Part shown: in pieces, positions 10,901-38,150 of the stretch
How the letters are laid out: each line of letters begins with the position of its first letter
Numbering within the stretch: position 1 is the stretch's first letter
Source: Branchiostoma floridae
Lineage: Eukaryota; Chordata; Leptocardii; Amphioxiformes; Branchiostomatidae
Length of the DNA stretch: 64,000 nt
Reading direction: 5' to 3'
Assembly (NCBI RefSeq): GCF_000003815.2
Contig: NW_023365777.1
Coordinates: 106,855-170,854, forward strand
Notes under the pieces: generated by a model
What the model was told of the DNA's origin: nothing
Databases searched by the model: none
What the model saw: only the letters and a program-made list of their open reading frames with translations
Translations under genes and position numbers: made by a program

Positions 10901-13900
10901 CCCGTTATACACACGAAGTCTAATGCCAGATAGAACCCCTGAGAATGCAGGAAATGGTGTTTCAAAGGGTCCATATTTCAAAATTTCTCCGAGCCTCCCG
11001 GCCTTCGGCTCTGGACAGGGTAAAAAATGTTGCGGAAGCGTTGCCCTCAAAAACTTTATCACTCATACAGATTTCAGTGTCAAGCTTAGTTTCGGGCAAA
11101 AAGTACTCCTAGAATGCAAAAAAATGAGGTTTCTCCCTTGCGACGACTTGCGCCTTTGGCACTTATGACGACATTGCGAAAATATGTTAGGGGCGTGGGT
11201 TTTCCGGCACAATGAAACATTTTCTCTCTAAGAAAATGTTATATCTGATTTAGCTTCGTCTTACAGCAAAATCTATCCTTCGAAAGGCAGTAAATGGCGT
11301 TTCAGACGGTCCAGATTTTAAAATTTCCCCGTACTTATAATGCAACATCTCGTGCCTTCTGAGCTCGAATCGAAATGGTAAAATATGTCGGGGGCTCTGG
11401 GGGTGGAAGCCAAAGCTATAACCATGTGTAATTTGATGAAAATGTCAAAATCAACCTAGCTTAGTCGGTCGGCGAAATTTGCCGAAAAATGCAGGAAATA
11501 GCATTTAAGAGGGTCTTGATTTTAAAATTTTCGGGGGACCATACCCCCGGACCCCCCTGGGATGCGTCGCGCCTTCGGCGCTCCATGTGCCGAAACAATA
11601 GTTCAATCCCCCCATAAGAAATTTGCTGCCCCCGTCTCTGTGGCGGGCCGGGAACTCTAGATCTGCCTCCGTTAATTCACAGATGTCATGGACAATGTCC
11701 CTGTCATTCCTCCGGGTTCTGGGCACCTTTTGCTTCTCACAATGTCATTAGTCGGATATTTTCACCCATTGATATAACTACTCTAGCGCTGTATGAATAG
11801 GAATGCACGTCGATGTTACTTAAGTGTTATGCGTTGTTAGTAACTCCTTCTGAATTTACTGTTAAGCGTTACCGGGCCTCCTGAATTTACCGTTAAGCGT
11901 TACCGGGCCTCTGAATTCACCGTTAAGCGTTACCAAGACCCCCCCATGCAGGCCCTCACTTGAGGTTTATTCCAGCATGGCCGACATAGTTGGTGGTCGA
12001 TGGTAGGACTTGTGGGATTGTGGACCATACCACTTACAACATGGGTGGTAGTCTAAACCTACAAAAATGTGTAACTATAACATTGGGTGGTAGTCTAAAC
12101 CTAACTATAACATAGTGGCGTTATCCTTCGATGATATGCCCAGGATGTGACGAATACACTAACACCATACAGCAATAAAATGACTTTCTCTCCGATTCAC
12201 ACAAAATCAAAGTTTCAGAGTTAGGAGAATACAAGCTGGCCCAAGGGTGGTGGCCCAAACCAACTACAACCAACTATACAATCATATAAATGGTGTACCT
12301 GGATGTCTAACCTGCACCGACCTTTAATTGTCCCTTTTACTTTCCTTTCCTTTTCCTGCACCAGTCTTGGAAACATTACAACTGTATCTCATTTTAAGTC
12401 TTCATATTTCTCCTTCAAAAACAGGTGTGTGTTATACGTGAGTGAACTGACACACGATGGTGTCGCCAAATGTCTGTCCACCCTGGGCATGCGGGAGGCC
12501 GTGGTCAGAAAGGTGCCGGTGGAAGACCACTACAGAATGGACGTCAACTTGCTGCGCAAGTTCATTGAAAATGACGTGCAGGTTTGAAGCTTACAGGCAT
12601 GTTTGGTGAGGGATTTAGAAAGGTTCGCGTGGTGGAAAGGTCAGAGATGTACTTCAGGTCTGCCTAAACACCTCAATCTACCTCATATGACCTCAAACAA
12701 CTCTAATTTGCAATGTACATGGGGCAACAGCCTTGTGCGGTGACATGGATACATTGCTTGTAATTATAATTTTTTTTAAATTGCAGCAAGTCTAACTATT
12801 CACCAGTTTTCCACAGTTTCTGATCAGCCTCTGCTGTAAACGCCCGCTACAAGTGATAGAAATGTTGTTTACAAAGATAATTTTTAGCTCAAACGACCCT
12901 TTCTTTTGTTCCCAGAACAACCTGCTCCCGTTCCTCGTGGTGGCGACTACAGGGACGACCGACGTGGGCTCCGTGGATCCTGTTCCCGCCATTCGAGCCG
13001 TCGCCACACAGTACAACATGTGGCTGCACGTGGACGCCTGCTACGGAGGATTCTTCGTGCTCTGCAACTCCGCCAAACATCTGTTTGAAGGGGTGGAGAC
13101 AGCCGACTCCATTGCCGTGGATCCTCACAAGGGTACTTTCTGTCATTCATTTATTCATTCAACCTTCCATCTATCCATCTATCCATCCATCTCTCCCTCT
13201 CTCCATCCATCCATTCCTCCATCCATCCACCCTTCCAACCATTCCTTCTGAATCCTTCCTTCATTCATTAATATTCTTCATTCATTCACACAGGTCAAAT
13301 TTACTTGTCTCAGATTGATTGAATGATGAATTGGCATATCCTATTAGGTCTGTATGCGCCATTCGGAACCGGCCTAGTCCTCGTGCGAAATGGTGCCTCA
13401 CTGCGTGACTCCAACAACCGCCATCATGGAAGCTACATGCAAGACCAGAGGACCAACCCTGAAGACTGGAACCCCGAAGACTTGACGTTTGAGCAGAGTG
13501 CACATTTCAGGTAAAACCATGTTAAAAGCGCCTCTTGTGAATTAATGCTGTATTGCAGAAATGCATGCAGTACAAGTGACCGCTGTGTACATGTGCAGTA
13601 TTCGATGACTAATAAGGGCTTAATTTGCATAGTTTATTAGCAAAATCTATCATTGCAGTATTTCCTGTAATAGGACTTTGATAAATGTGACATTTGATAT
13701 AGGGCAAGTGAAACATTCACAGATAGCAATGATGCAAATAAGGTCTTAATTTGCATAACTAATACAACAAGTAAAGATGTCTAAGAAAGACACCTATAGG
13801 CGACGCATTTTAATGTTACTGACCCGCCCCGGGGTGTATATGGTGAGCTTGAGGGGTGGGGGTGGGGGGGTGGGGGTATCTGCGGGGTTGGTTCCTTAGG

Positions 13901-16900
13901 GGGGGGGGGCAAAGGTGGCCTTAAGGAGGGGCGAAAATATTCTGAATTTCTGATACTATTACACAAACAATTTTCTTATTATGACATTATTTTTGCGAGG
14001 TTATAGTCCGAATTGTCAGTCGATCGATCCTTCAATCGATTGCAACACGTGCAAACAAGATCTAAAACAGTACATGTACAAAACTTCAAGACTTGTATCA
14101 AGAACTTGCCATAACAATAATAGAGAGATTTAAAGCATTAGAAATTAAGGACTTAAATTGCTACTGCAAATGACGGCTTCAATCTTTATATGGCCTCATT
14201 CGGTCAATATTGACCATGGCAAAATCCTAATTGATATCAGCCCTACAGCGTCGACTGTGGCTAAAAGTCCTATAGTATACGAGCATTACATTCTCTGCCA
14301 CATAGGGCACATCTGTAAGCTGACTCAGGTGTTCTTTTAGCAGGATCCGCTTTTCTTCTGCCATACGCATCAGTCTGGTTTCTCCTGATTTCTCATAAAG
14401 AAGATAACCATAACAATAATGTAGAATTCCAAAGAATTAAAGATTAATAAGGACTATGTGACATTATCTGACTGGTTCGGTCCATAAGAAAACAGATTAT
14501 AGGATGCACAATATACATAATCTTCTGTCTTTCCTCAATATAAACGAGGGACAATTGATAATAAAAAGTGTAGATCATCTTCAACAGTATGTTTGTACAT
14601 AGTATTATTAGTACAGAGTAAAATATGGTTAATATAGTTCTGAGCCTTCGTAGTTTTCAGGTCACGCTTCCGCATACCAAATGCCAAGTGTTCTATTCCT
14701 AAAATAGCCTAGTTACCTAGTAACATAAACATCTGGTACAAATACTCTACACGCCTTTTATCTTATCTGTCTCAGTCTCTTCTTCCAGTGTCCGGCAAAG
14801 TAAAAAAAAAAATAGACTGGACATATTTTTTGAACGTGTTCGCCTTTTTCTTAGGCATTTTGGCATCAACAAAACTGGTACCTGTGAACTTTTTAATAAG
14901 GCTACCTATGAATGATCATGAATGTCTTATCATTATGCTACGGTCACATTTCCAAACCGGAAGTTACCGGAATAAAAAAAAAGCTACATTTATGAAGGAT
15001 AGACATCCAAATTAAAAAGTAAAGCTGTTTATGGTCGTTTATCAGTTCACAAATTATGGCCACTATTTATTTTCTTTGCATTTTGTGTGTTTTAGGCCCT
15101 CTACATACTTCTAATTTGTTCACGAGAGCTGCCCAATCGGACCCCGGGTTGGAACTGTAACCGTAAAACTACCCCCAGCTTGAGGAGCGAAAGTTGCCTG
15201 GTCGGTTCCCGTTTGGAAATGGGACCGTAACATTACCCTAATTATTTTTGAGGAGCTGTTGAAGATCTTGTTTGAGAGAGTTATTAATTCTTTTGGCAAA
15301 TTTCTTATCGAATATTGTGTTGACCCTTTCACCTCACCTAGTATTAGGCCACAGTAAGTAGCTATTGTGGATGACATCAGCGCGAATACAATGTTTTGAA
15401 TGGAATGAATGAGAGCCGACCTAAGTGACAAAAGTTTTACTCATTGCGGCGCCCCTTTGTAATCAGTCCATCTGCATAATTCATCTCAGTTCGGGTAACG
15501 ATGTTAGCCAGACCATGGCCACATGGGGTCGGCGTCATTGTCTTGGTGATTTCTTAGTAATCGGTGACATCCCTAATTGATCTGAGTCGAAATGTCGCCG
15601 TGCTAATCAATGCCAAAAACAACGGTTGGCGTATAATGCCCTATCTGGCCTATAGGCAAAGGAAAGGCACCGTACTCACCTGTATAATGCCCTATCTGGC
15701 CTATAGGCAAAGGAAAGGCACCGTACTCACCTGTATGATACCCTATCTGGCCTATAGGCAAAGAAAAGGCACCGTACTCACCTGTATAATGCCCTATCTG
15801 GCCTATAGGCAAAGGAAAGGCACCGTGCTTGCCTGTATAATGCCCTATCTGGCCTGTAGGCAAAGGAAAGGCACCGTACTCACCTGTATAATGCCCTATA
15901 TGGTCTATAGGCAAAGGTAAGGCACCGTACTCACCTGTATAATGCCCTATCTGGTCTGTAGGCAAAGAAAAGGCACTGTACTCTCCTGTATAATGCCCTA
16001 TATGGTTTAAAGGCAAAGGTAAGGCGCCATACTCACCTGTATAATGCCCTATATGGGTTATAGGCAAAGGTAAGGCACCGTACTCACCTGTATAATGCCC
16101 TATCTGGTCTATAGGCAAAGGAAAGGCACCGTAGTCACCTGTATAATGCCCTATCTGGTCTGTAGGCAAAGGAAAGGCGCCTTACTCACCTGTGCAATAT
16201 CTTACCTTATCTGTAGTCAAAAGAAACTGATATAGCTGTAACCTGTACGGTGCAAAAACTTTAGTTTCATTCGCACGTGCGCTCGCATTTATTAATAGTT
16301 TGGTGTTTTGTCAACGTCACATTTACAATGGCGGCACAATTGGTTGAAGAAGTGCCGAATAAACTATCCCATAATCATTAACATATAAATGATATTCTGT
16401 ATTTACCTCATGGTACTTTGTAGTCCCTTGCCGTGGTGCTGCCACTCTCCTGGCCACTGCCTCGTGATGTATATTATCATTACGTTAACGTTGCGTTGTT
16501 GGGAGGGAAGCCGCTGTCATGTCGTGAAATGACAAGTTTACAGACAATAAAACTAGAACACAATGCTTAATGACAAACTACTACAGTGTGTGTTCCGCGA
16601 TGAACTGTCGCTCCATCTCCTATTTTGATGAGAAAAACGGCCGGAAGTTGTCTGCGAGATCGAAAGGCTGTGCCGCACACTCTGCTGGAGCAGTCATACG
16701 TCACGGGTCAGAGGTCACGGGTATTTAAACATCAGGCGGATACATTCTAACGCCAACCCAAACAACCCTTTGTTTATTACCGACAGAACTCCGTATGTGG
16801 CCCGGCCGCTGGCACGGCAAGGTGCCACGGTCATTACAGCAGCGCATCTCGTGGCGTTATAATACATCGCAGACTTTTCGCTCTGAAATTTCTCGAGTTT

Positions 16901-19900
16901 TCGCGTAAGTCTTTCCTCTAAACCTTGTCGGACGATTTGAACACGCTTGTCCCTAGTTTCATCTTGCTGGCCAAGCCACCACGTATACGCCCCGTCGGCG
17001 GAAACCGCTTCCCGTTCAGCGGAGCCAGCGCGCTAAGATCCCGTAAACGTCGGCCCGTCCCCGGAGCTAGTCAGCCAGGTCTCCGTCGGATCATTCTTCG
17101 GTACCGGTCAATCACGTCCCCGTTCCGGTGTCTCCCTACAGAGCCCTTGCGAGGCCCCCAATATAGGACACAACTTTCGCGGTCTCAAGCCGGATTTCCT
17201 CCGAACTTGTTCGTACATACCCGGCGGCATTGCTTGGACAGTGCTTTGACAACGTACTCCCAGACCGTTGACTTCCTGACCCTTCTTGACCCGTCTTCAG
17301 CTTAGAGAGGCGAACATCCGGTCAACACCGATCAACTAGCCGAACCTTTCTTCAGTGACCGAACTCAACTCCACGGTGAGCTGCCATATTGTTGTATCTT
17401 GTTACAAACTTGTCCTTTCATGGATACTTCAACTGCGAACATTGCCATTGTAACAGTGGTGTTCAAGGACTGCTAAACCGAAGACGCCTAACGGCTTAAG
17501 CCTTTATGGCCGAACGGTTTGCACGTTCGATTTGTGATCCGGCTGCCCGGGTTTGGCACGGGTTCGAATCCCGGGAGTCGGGGTGTTGTTTCTTTCTGTT
17601 CTTACTCGCCCCTCTGGTTGTTTCACTGGTTCCCACGCCGGCCCTGTGATTAACAGGCTTGTATGTGCCACACAGGGATGTCGATCTCGGAGATTCGAGG
17701 ACGAATCTTGAAAAGAAAAGGGGGAGTAGTGTAACAGTGGTGTTCAAGGACTGCTAAACCGAAGACGCCTGACGGCTTAAGCCTTTATGGCCGAACGGTT
17801 TGCACGTTCGATTTGTGATCCGGCTGCCCGGGTTTGGCACGGGTTCGAATCCCGGGAGTCGGGGTGTTGTTTCTTTCTGTTCTTACTCGCCCCTCTGGTT
17901 GTTTCACCATTACCGGACACTCTTTTGTATGATTTCTAGACGACTCGCCCCAAGACTAACTCGCCCCAACTATTTACTACCAAGTCGCCCCAAGTTAGGG
18001 AGACCGGGAATACAGGATAGCCCTTGCTTTTGTGCTGTCTTTACACACATATATTCTGCCTGTAAATATTACTTTATATGCTAACAAAACCTCGTCGCTA
18101 AACTTCTTTTTTTGCTAGGTATTTAGCGGCGAATTCGGGATCTGCGGGCGGGCCCGGTCGGCATGTCGGCCCGCCCGCTTTATTGATAATTTTTGCCCGG
18201 ACTGGCAGCGCTTTTATGTCACTACAGTGGCAAGGTTTATTGAGAAATATAACAGAAGTATCTTATTATATGTAACATAGTTTCATAACAGCCTATGTGT
18301 ATTAATTTGAGATACTTGAGATTACAGTGAGCGGCGCACACCCCCGGGCCGACATGCAACATAAAATGATATACCCGCCAACGCCGGCTAGCGCCCCGGC
18401 GTTGATCGGGCGTTAAATAAAAGTGGCAAACCGGAGAGAATGTTAAAATTAGAGCGACGAGGGTTTGTTTATATGTAAAGTAATACCTAAAATTTAATTA
18501 TATGTGTGTAAAAGCAGTATAAAAGAAAAGGCTATCCTGTATTTCCCGGTCCCCGTAACTTGGGGCGACTTGGTAGTAAATAGTTGGGGCGAGTTAGTCT
18601 TGGGGCGAGTTGACCGGTTTCCTTTTGTATCCCGACTGAAGTCATTTGTTCGGCGTCGTACTACGACAGCCACAGGACAAGCAATTTGTCCTTATTTTGG
18701 GGCATCTAACGTAGACATTCAGTTTCATGGCGTGCCGGGCTGCACCATCCCAAAATATTACGCTAGTGTGCTTCCTATTCTGCAGCAAACCAGTCCTCAC
18801 ATTGTGTACGTAGAGCTAGGGCACAACGATACATATACGGCACAACGGGCTCCAGAAACCATAGCTCGTGATTTAGTAGCTTTGGCACGCAAAATCTCTG
18901 AAATCCATTCAGTTCGACAGGTGATTCTAGCTGAACCAATCTGGCGATTCAAATCCCCCTGTAACATGCCGGACTTCCACTCACGCATCCATGATTTCCG
19001 CCCCCTCGTCGACGCTACCCCATCCGTTCACAGATGGTACCACGCAAAGCTGTGGCAGAAAAACCCTAACTATTTCGTTTCAGATGGTATTTTTCTGAGC
19101 CATTCTCTTCAAATTGTTCCCAATTGAAGGCTTGTTTTGTTAACCTTTTTTTCAATTGCTTCAATCGCGAGTTGGCTTCACATTTGGTGTATTTGTAGCC
19201 CCGGACAGAAATGTTCCAGTCAACATGACGACGACCTTTGACTGTTTCAAAAGAAACATGGACTGGTTCGACTGACATGGACTTGCAAAATGGAGACAAA
19301 TGGCCGGATGCTGAGGATTCGAGTAACTAATCGCCTATGAGATTATGTATGAATTTCTCATCAGGTGAGTATGCCCGTTGTGCTGCTCTGGTTTTAGTCG
19401 ACTTAGTTATGTTTAGTTAAGTTAAGTAAAAGGTTATGTTGAACGGGACGACAACGACCTTGGTGATCGGACAGGAAACTTGCTGGGATTTATCCGGGGA
19501 TTCTTATGTCTGGCTCCCAGTCATTTGCTCTATTGTTTCAGCACATGGAAGGCGCGACGCATTCCAGGGGGGTCCGGGGGTATGCTTCCCGGGAAAAAAT
19601 TTTGAAATCAAGAACCTCTTAAATGCTATTTGGCAAATGCTATTTGCATTTTTGGCAAATTTTGCCGACCGACTAAGCTAGGTTGATTTTGACATTTTCA
19701 TTGAATTATGCATGATTATACCGTAGCTTTGGCTTCCACCCCCAGAGTCCCGACATATTTTTACCACGAGCTCGGAAGGCACGAGACGTTGCAATTTTAA
19801 AATCCGGGAAAATTTTAAAATCTGGACCGTCTGAAACGCCATTTACTATATTTTGAAGGACCGATTTTGCCGTAAGACGAAGCTAAATTAAATTAAATGA

Positions 19901-36708: not shown

Positions 36709-36812
36709 TAAAACGTGAATCTGTCAGTGTATGCTGGGAACAATTTATTTCTGGTAGAATCTCTAATGCATAATTTCCGTCATTTTTCTGCAGTGTCGAG
36801 GACCTAATCGTC

Positions 36813-38150
36813 ATGGCAACCAACGCTGTAGCTCACCTGAGACAAGAGGATAGGGACGGTCGTGATAAGGATCTTCCCTGTACTAACAAGTGTAGCACGT
36901 GTGACAAGCAATTTCGTTGCCGTAGTGCATTGGTGAAACACCTGCGCACTCACACTGGCGAGAAACCCTACAGGTGTGAGGAGTGCAACAAACAGTTCAG
37001 TCAGCTGAGTAATCTGAAGAGCCATATAAGGTATCACACCGGTGAGAAGCCATACAGGTGTGAGCAGTGTAGCAAGCAGTTCAGTGACCCGAGTTCTCTG
37101 AAGAAGCATATTAGGACTCACACTGGTGAGAAGCCGTACAGATGTGAGGAGTGTAGCAAACAGTTCAGTGTGCTGAGTTCTCTGAAGAGTCATATGAGGA
37201 CTCATACTGGAGAAAAACCATATCGTTGTGAAAAGTGCAGCAGGCACTTTGGTCAGCTGTGTAGACTGAAGAAGCACATGAGGACTCATACCGGAGAGAA
37301 ACCCTACCGTTGCGAGGAGTGCAGCAGACAATTTAGTGAGCTGGGTAATCTGAAGAAGCATATGGGGACTCATACTGGAGAAAAACATTATGCTTGTGAG
37401 GAGTGCAGCAGGCAGTTCAGTAATCTGAGTAATCTGGAGACTCATATGCGGACTCACACTGGAGAAAAACCTTACAGCTGTGAGCAGTGTAGCAAACAGT
37501 TCAGTCAGCTGAGTGCTCTTAAGACTCATATTAGGACTCACACCGGTGAGAAGCCGTACAGGTGCGATCAGTGCAGCAAACAGTTCAGTCAGATGAATTC
37601 TCTGCAAAAGCATATTAGGACTCACACGGGAGAAAAACCATACACGTGTGAGCAGTGCAGCAGGCAGTTCAGTGAGCGGGGTTCTCTGAAGAAGCATATG
37701 AGGATTCACACTGGAGAGAAACCTTATAGGTGTGAGCAGTGCAGCAAGCAGTTTAGGAATCTGGGACATCTAAAGAACCATATGAGGACTCACACTGGTG
37801 AGAAGCCTTACAGGTGTGAGGAGTGCGGCAGACAGTTCAGTGAGTCGGGTTCTCTGAAGACGCATATGAAGACTCATACTGGAGAGAAACCTTATAAGTG
37901 TGAGCAGTGCAGCAAACAGTTCAGTCAGCTGGGTCATATGAAGACTCATATGAGGACTCACACCGGTGAAAAACCTTACAAGTGCGAGGAGTGCAGCAGG
38001 CAGTTCTGTGAGCTGGGTCAGCTGAAGAGTCATATGAGGACTCACACCGGTGAGATACCTTATTCGTGTAAAGTATGCGGTCGGGGGTTCCGTCACAAAG
38101 GTAATCTGAACGTTCACATGCGAACCCACGGGAATGGAAGCCCCCAGTAA
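36813..38150 (+). CDS. C2H2 zinc-finger protein, 15 fingers (445 aa)
   Basis: The uninterrupted coding exon starts at the ATG after an acceptor at 36794. A 26-residue polar leader is followed by fifteen C2H2 fingers from Cys27 to near the C-terminus. They follow C-x2-C-x12-H-x3-H spacing and are joined by TGEKPY linkers; linker variants are TGEKHY after finger 6 and TGEIPY before finger 15. There is no KRAB, BTB or other effector domain. Finger 15 (CKVCGRGFRHKG) differs most from the array. It is expected to be a nuclear, sequence-specific DNA-binding protein. The fingers differ mainly at helix positions that contact bases, as in the rapidly expanding poly-zinc-finger families of amphioxus. 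An upstream non-coding exon (34790-34917) may supply the promoter. The target genes cannot be inferred. Confidence 0.9.
   Translation: MATNAVAHLRQEDRDGRDKDLPCTNKCSTCDKQFRCRSALVKHLRTHTGEKPYRCEECNKQFSQLSNLKSHIRYHTGEKPYRCEQCSKQFSDPSSLKKHIRTHTGEKPYRCEECSKQFSVLSSLKSHMRTHTGEKPYRCEKCSRHFGQLCRLKKHMRTHTGEKPYRCEECSRQFSELGNLKKHMGTHTGEKHYACEECSRQFSNLSNLETHMRTHTGEKPYSCEQCSKQFSQLSALKTHIRTHTGEKPYRCDQCSKQFSQMNSLQKHIRTHTGEKPYTCEQCSRQFSERGSLKKHMRIHTGEKPYRCEQCSKQFRNLGHLKNHMRTHTGEKPYRCEECGRQFSESGSLKTHMKTHTGEKPYKCEQCSKQFSQLGHMKTHMRTHTGEKPYKCEECSRQFCELGQLKSHMRTHTGEIPYSCKVCGRGFRHKGNLNVHMRTHGNGSPQ

Follow-up and report, generated by a model that had tools for sequence, protein, structure and literature searches.

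The closest described systems to the amphioxus element analyzed here are the TRIMs of the Helenus (TRIMp3) kind, which were defined by Kojima in 2024 (PMC10886601) and whose hosts include coelacanth, sturgeon, zebrafish and bivalves, the last being animals in which TRIMs are also reported in PMC6934838. According to the main text of the former paper, Helenus elements are TRIMs with tRNA-like A and B boxes in their LTRs, a polypurine tract (PPT) and solo LTRs, and their animal members have a primer binding site (PBS) that can pair with a tRNA 3′ end and 4-bp target-site duplications, all of which are also features of the amphioxus family. Transcription of Helenus by RNA polymerase III (Pol III) is likewise inferred in that paper, and the mobilization of the animal members is attributed there to Gypsy elements. 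The zebrafish Helenus element LTR-11_DR forms tandem arrays that are comparable to the ladders of LTRs in amphioxus, and a tRNA-Glu primer, as used by the amphioxus family, is given for bivalves but not for vertebrates. Hairpins, palindromes, TTTT and tRNA capture are not mentioned in the main text of that paper, whereas the amphioxus family has captured primer tRNAs as well as a palindrome in front of the A box, and the names Branchiostoma, amphioxus and lancelet are absent from its main text and Table 1.

The plant TRIM Cassandra also combines miniature size with a Pol III promoter in its LTRs, but that promoter is derived from 5S rRNA (type 1), whereas the predicted promoter of the amphioxus family is tRNA-like (type 2). 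Cassandra forms LTR-I-LTR-I-LTR ladders (PMC7215508), as does the amphioxus family, and the ends of its RNA both fall within the 5S portions of its LTRs, so that the transcript carries 18-nt repeated ends (PMC10886601). Ajax, a nemertean TRIM covered in the same paper, has the TRIMp3 design in common with the amphioxus family but is 5S-derived and has 5-bp duplications. tRNA-derived SINEs resemble the amphioxus family in being short and non-coding and in having A and B boxes, but they have no LTRs, PBS or PPT and are moved by LINE machinery.

The element under study occupies positions 17449–17906 of the window, by which we mean the whole 64,000-nt stretch of Branchiostoma floridae DNA that was analyzed. 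At 458 bp it lies within the size range of TRIMs (<1000 bp), and it has no coding capacity. A preliminary description of the window had proposed a miniature LTR retrotransposon with a tRNA-type Pol III promoter in each LTR, and the structural features on which it relied are all present. Two 177-bp direct repeats with TG...CA ends form the 5′ LTR (17449–17625, plus strand, TGTAACAG...TTTCA) and the 3′ LTR (17730–17906, plus strand) and differ by one mismatch (A at 17490, G at 17771). Identical CCAT target-site duplications, of the 4-bp length typical of the family, flank the element at 17445–17448 and 17907–17910. The 104-bp internal region (17626–17729) has stop codons in the three forward frames and contains, on the same strand, the PBS TGGTTCCCACGCCGG (17627–17641), which starts one base past the 5′ LTR and pairs, as judged by eye, with the 3′ end of tRNA-Glu with one G-U pair, and the PPT GAAAAGAAAAGGGGGAG (17710–17726), which ends three bases ahead of the 3′ LTR. 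The PPT was identical in 11 of the 12 aligned rows holding that part, most of which are copies inside one larger repeat, and had one base changed in the remaining row, L059. In the 5′ LTR a palindrome, GGCTTAAGCC (17493–17502), is followed by TTTA and an A box, TGGCCGAACGG (17507–17517), that fits the TRGCY/YGG rule of the Helenus box A, and then by a B box, GGTTCGAATCC (17561–17571), the boxes being those of a predicted type 2 Pol III promoter. The palindrome (17774–17783), A box (17788–17798) and B box (17842–17852) recur on the same strand in the 3′ LTR, each offset by 281 nt. When the tRNA-like part of the LTR was examined with tRNA models, as the preliminary description had proposed, it did not prove to be a complete tRNA, as ARAGORN found none in the whole 64,000-nt window and no Rfam model matched at E ≤ 1 between positions 16500 and 19000; the possibility that the LTR represents a whole tRNA gene was rejected on that basis.

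A search of the genome (513 Mb in 431 contigs) with the whole element, which scored 40 of 1055 candidates, produced 45 near-full-length matches, made up of the window copy plus another 44 at 96–99% identity, as well as one weak LTR match; five pairs of matches overlap within ladders. Since 45 near-full-length matches exist in the same genome, the element is not a chance arrangement. Shorter patterns confirmed a family of hundreds of copies: a 24-mer from U5 occurred at 606 sites, the 27-mer surrounding the B box had 384 matches (≤2 mismatches) and a 34-mer from the internal region had 279 (≤3 mismatches), with zero matches to the reversed control of each. Positions were taken for the first 100 matches of each pattern. 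The 90 loci that were fetched represent 83 distinct clusters once same-flank duplicates were removed. Loci L001–L040 were picked by similarity to the window copy, L041–L070 were taken from the B-box pattern in listed order (six exact matches, then contig order), and L071–L090 were hand-picked from the B-box list for odd spacings or as singles. Several LTR types were distinguished: type A is that of the window, type B differs in its last 9–11 bp, type C differs in U3 and the A box, and types D to G, each from one or few copies, differ in U3 and over portions of the tRNA-like sequence.

The copies have the insertion signature of an LTR element. Both termini were available in 62 clusters, of which 52 had an exact 4-bp target duplication, one a 5-bp duplication and nine none, and merging of clusters with similar flanks gave 4-bp duplications in 50 of 58. 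By comparison, pairing the left and right flanks of different copies produced duplications in 43 of 3782 combinations (1.1%), and the 4- to 5-bp duplications anticipated in the preliminary description were thereby borne out. Among the nine clusters without a duplication are three LTRs fused to tRNA (L073, L074 and L079), in which the insert does not end at the LTR. LTR-pair mismatches in 41 same-type two-LTR copies, a set mostly chosen by likeness to the window copy and not an unbiased age profile, numbered 0 (19 copies), 1 (13), 3 (7), 4 (1) or 6 (1), in keeping with the expected identity between LTRs. Taken together, these copies constitute a mobile, non-coding two-LTR family with a tRNA-Glu PBS, a purine tract and integrase-type 4-bp duplications.

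Some copies have more than two LTRs. Three-LTR ladders (LTR-I-LTR-I-LTR) are present at L008, L015, L018, L033 and L038, and a mixed ladder at L048, all with the duplication at their outer ends. In L008 and L033 the two outer LTRs match exactly and the one between them differs; in L048 the outer LTRs are 2 mismatches apart and the middle LTR is 22–23 from them; all LTRs of L015 are identical; and LTR2 and LTR3 are the closest pair in L018 and L038, which is not predicted by ladder retrotransposition. Some ladders therefore look, from their sequences, as though they were retrotransposed whole, the pattern in L008, L033 and L048 being as expected, and others do not. Elsewhere, three 3′-end motifs at C2:2906306, 2906454 and 2906602 have a spacing of 148 bp and may form a tandem array of some shortened derivative. 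A further set of eight copies (L044, L051, L054, L055, L059, L066, L069 and L081) is mosaic, with a 5′ LTR ~82% and a 3′ LTR ~98% like the window LTR. Because these eight and the solo LTR L063 have their flanks and a TTCC duplication in common, they represent one insertion that multiplied inside a larger repeat, and the view that they contradict LTR replication was rejected. The mosaic insertion itself has a type C 5′ LTR and a type B 3′ LTR, which is unexpected from a single LTR retrotransposition, and conversion or recombination therefore probably took place before multiplication.

The type C LTR matched the tRNA-Sec model over the whole tRNA-like segment with 25.7 bits and an E value of 0.3, which is below threshold, and a putative tRNA origin of the segment rests on this match together with the A and B boxes. 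Immediately ahead of the T run and A box, six U3 types have six different 9–12-nt palindromes (GGCTTAAGCC, AGCTCTTGAGCT, AGCTCTGAGCT, GCACTAGTGC, GCTCTAGAGC and GCCTGTCAGGC), whereas an arm of at least 4 arose at the palindrome position in 1.4–2.2% of shuffled segments. These six were hand-picked from ten U3 representatives, the others being L050 and L083, which repeat palindromes already used, L088, whose palindrome is shortened, and L072, which is without the family U3 at that place. Types E and G have the same surroundings, and their palindrome interiors differ by paired changes. Of the 71 distinct U3 segments, 63 have a best-scoring palindrome that abuts a T run of at least 3, under a score that favored palindromes with T after them, six have a palindrome with no directly adjoining T run and two have no palindrome. 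Runs of at least four Ts are restricted to one place per LTR in the 46 two-LTR copies, except L034, and are absent from 25 of the 46, which weakens the idea that a T4 terminator is essential. Together, the palindrome and the T run suggest a short R region or a Pol III terminator; the former is proposed by analogy with the 18-nt repeated ends of Cassandra RNA, whose short terminal redundancy is a possible parallel. A diverged solo LTR of type F at L079:1925–2101 has the palindrome GCCTGTCAGGC-TTTT and A and B boxes, and lies ~280 bp from an LTR-tRNA fusion.

Such fusions were found at L073, L074 and L079, in which an LTR end and the PBS are followed by the unbroken reverse complement of tRNA-Glu(CTC), including CCA, with 5′ junctions at about nt 7, 8 and 10 of the tRNA, respectively. 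ARAGORN called tRNA-Glu(CTC) at the PBS in L073 and L079 and no tRNA in L074, and the Rfam tRNA scores were 51.2 (L073), 43.2 (L079) and 39.8 bits (L074). The L073 composite is flanked by AAGT duplications and the LTR and tRNA of L079 by GATA duplications, provided that a single A is assigned to the insert; the corresponding segment of L074 lies within an LTR of another type and has no duplication. Genome-wide, an LTR end with the PBS and tRNA sequence past nucleotide 58 (≤2 mismatches) was found at 53 places (control 0), of which 31 reach about nt 10 with ≤3 mismatches allowed. A stricter pattern, with exact family U5, LTR end and tRNA past nt 58, matched 16 loci (control 0), 14 of them among the 31 by list comparison, and up to 37 of the 53 places may therefore belong to other LTR families or diverged copies. 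Matches to a tRNA-Glu(CTC) 35-mer numbered 72 in the genome, with 31 directly following the LTR-end/PBS motif and 41 following none of the 53 sites. One of the 41, C11:6146664, adjoins C11:6146696, one of the five PBS sites described below, which is probably a diverged LTR-tRNA fusion. On the minus strand of L082, from ~2139 on, a diverged LTR is followed by TGGTTGCCACACCAGATATCGAACCC, perhaps a decayed fusion, in which ARAGORN called no tRNA.

In retroviruses, plus-strand synthesis is believed to halt at a methylated A58 in the primer, although this is not considered the sole stop, and copying of the primer beyond the stop would hinder completion (PMC1785368). Against this background, the amphioxus fusions look like primer tRNA that was copied past the usual stop. 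No reports of genomic fusions between LTRs and primer tRNAs were found in the literature consulted, which included parts of PMC1785368, PMC7472051 and PMC3832253. Our proposal, made tentatively and with its prospects placed a little below even, is that reverse transcriptase regularly copies tRNA-Glu past nt 58 and close to the tRNA 5′ end, that the LTR-tRNA cDNAs integrate (in L073 within a composite), and that palindrome and T run covary as a unit by which a short R and the 3′ end of a Pol III-made retrotransposon RNA are set.

A rather unlikely alternative is that genomic tRNA-Glu genes recombined with the PBS at the DNA level to give the fusions, or that one old capture was copied along with the element. 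It gains some credit from the fact that the sequence was read at only three of the 16 strict loci and that these three show no misincorporation at tRNA position 58. However, their tRNA junctions all differ, they include two LTR types (C, A and C in L073, L074 and L079), the distances from the PBS to the internal region vary (C10 +72 and C6 +41, by arithmetic on match positions), and the join falls exactly at the LTR end plus one base plus CCA. CCA is not known to be encoded in animal nuclear tRNA genes, and its presence at the join counts against recombination with them. Copying of the primer remains our preferred explanation of the fusions.

The nature of the family as a whole can also be read in other ways. 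The preliminary description had warned that the element could be mistaken for a dimeric tRNA-SINE. Such an element, or a tRNA-SINE that happened to be duplicated in tandem, with LINE machinery moving it, would be compatible with the A and B boxes in each unit and with the existence of single-unit copies. Those single units are solo LTRs, however, five of which (L041, L058, L084, L085 and L088) have 4-bp duplications, the solo LTR L086 having none, and neither the long duplications nor the variable, tailed 3′ ends that would characterize a SINE were encountered: the copies read end at fixed TG...CA termini, with no tail beyond CA where a duplication flanks the copy. Together with the purine tract, the PBS that in some copies is followed by copied primer tRNA, and the target duplications reported above, this led us to reject a SINE for the sampled copies and to regard it as scarcely credible for the family. 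The LTR grammar preferred in the preliminary description is thus upheld. It is improbable, but less so, that RNA polymerase II transcribes this TRIM, with the tRNA-like segment carried along as a passenger. In favor of this, the segment falls short of a complete tRNA, 25 of the 46 copies lack the T4 that precedes the A box, and one copy each of type D (L082) and type G (L060) has a changed B box; against this, the B box GGTTCGANTCC and an A-box-like segment have been kept in the otherwise diverged U3 types A, C, E and F, and the longer T runs are confined to a single place per LTR with the one exception noted.

We are therefore highly confident that the element is a TRIM of the Helenus (TRIMp3) kind, with a proposed replication by way of Pol III and Gypsy proteins; A and B boxes in both LTRs, two LTRs around a non-coding interior, a PBS to a tRNA 3′ end, a PPT and 4-bp duplications are the traits by which Helenus is recognized. 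In such a cycle, Pol III would start at the A and B boxes of the 5′ LTR, and the RNA would be packaged and copied by the proteins of an autonomous LTR retrotransposon, likely a Gypsy element in view of the 4-bp duplication and Kojima's PBS comparisons. tRNA-Glu(CTC) would prime the first strand at the PBS and the purine tract the second, and a retroviral-type integrase would insert the product. The enzyme may sometimes copy the primer beyond nt 58, nearly to the tRNA 5′ end, yielding LTR-tRNA fusions, and the palindrome and T run in the 3′ LTR could provide a short terminal redundancy (R) and the RNA 3′ end, similar to Cassandra.

A search for an autonomous Gypsy relative that shares the PBS, as recommended in the preliminary description, identified none. 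PBS sites followed by neither a TRIM nor an exact tRNA were found at five places (control 1). One of them, a site on C17 known from its pattern match, lies 2268 bp upstream, on the same strand, of an integrase zinc domain; a simple density estimate puts the chance of this coincidence at ~0.004, and the site could belong to a Gypsy element with the same primer. TRIM-like 3′ ends outside a TRIM context occurred at five places and one place in two genome searches, which established no shared 3′ end, and one of the five, C1:14693692, is a TRIM already in the fetched set. When the first 100 of 359 3′-end matches, a set that includes TRIMs, and 54 listed matches to the internal 34-mer were compared with integrase domains, there was one coincidence on the test side and two in the mirror-image control, which speaks against a partner signal at the 3′ end. 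The latter were at C2:15178593 and C3:1662581, where integrase domains follow the 18-nt 3′-end motif at the nearly equal distances of 2807 and 2813 bp, respectively. A candidate partner on C4, in which an integrase domain precedes an exact copy of the internal 34-mer by 976 bp, was dropped; it probably represents a TRIM next to a Gypsy copy, since the sole 3′ end not preceded by a TRIM lies elsewhere. The 3′ part of the internal region can be read in translation as RDVDLGDSRTNL, which may resemble the C-termini of Gypsy pol.

The preliminary description could not say whether such an element had been described before. The kind is known as Helenus, including from chordates, but amphioxus is not named in the main text of PMC10886601, and a literature search by title and start of abstract, with most subscription journals and Repbase outside its scope, found no report of an amphioxus TRIM or Helenus element. 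The family is a firmly supported new Helenus member, probably the first from a cephalochordate, and extends the TRIMs with a tRNA-type Pol III promoter beyond the fishes, invertebrates, fungi and one plant for which they have been listed so far. What goes beyond the main text of Kojima 2024 are the primer-tRNA fusions and the covarying palindrome. The family is young and abundant in a chromosome-scale genome. Its fusions identify the primer directly, beyond complementarity alone, and record the reach of reverse transcription into the primer. If they do reflect primer copying, they would account for part of the “tRNA-Glu genes” called by scanners (31 of 72 matches). Retrotransposon products probably raise the tRNA gene counts in this genome. 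The covarying palindrome offers a testable idea on an old puzzle, namely how a Pol III transcript could gain the repeated ends needed in LTR replication.

Other features were observed in the course of the analysis. A hairpin at L076:424–519 matched the mir-929 model with 33.2 bits, under the 56-bit gathering score of that model. In the window, open frames at 12225–13251, which contain VDACYGG and VDPHKG, were judged by eye to resemble exons of a gene like those for aromatic amino acid decarboxylases, and a 458-aa open frame at 36774–38150 has ~13 repeats that were recognized by eye as C2H2 zinc fingers.
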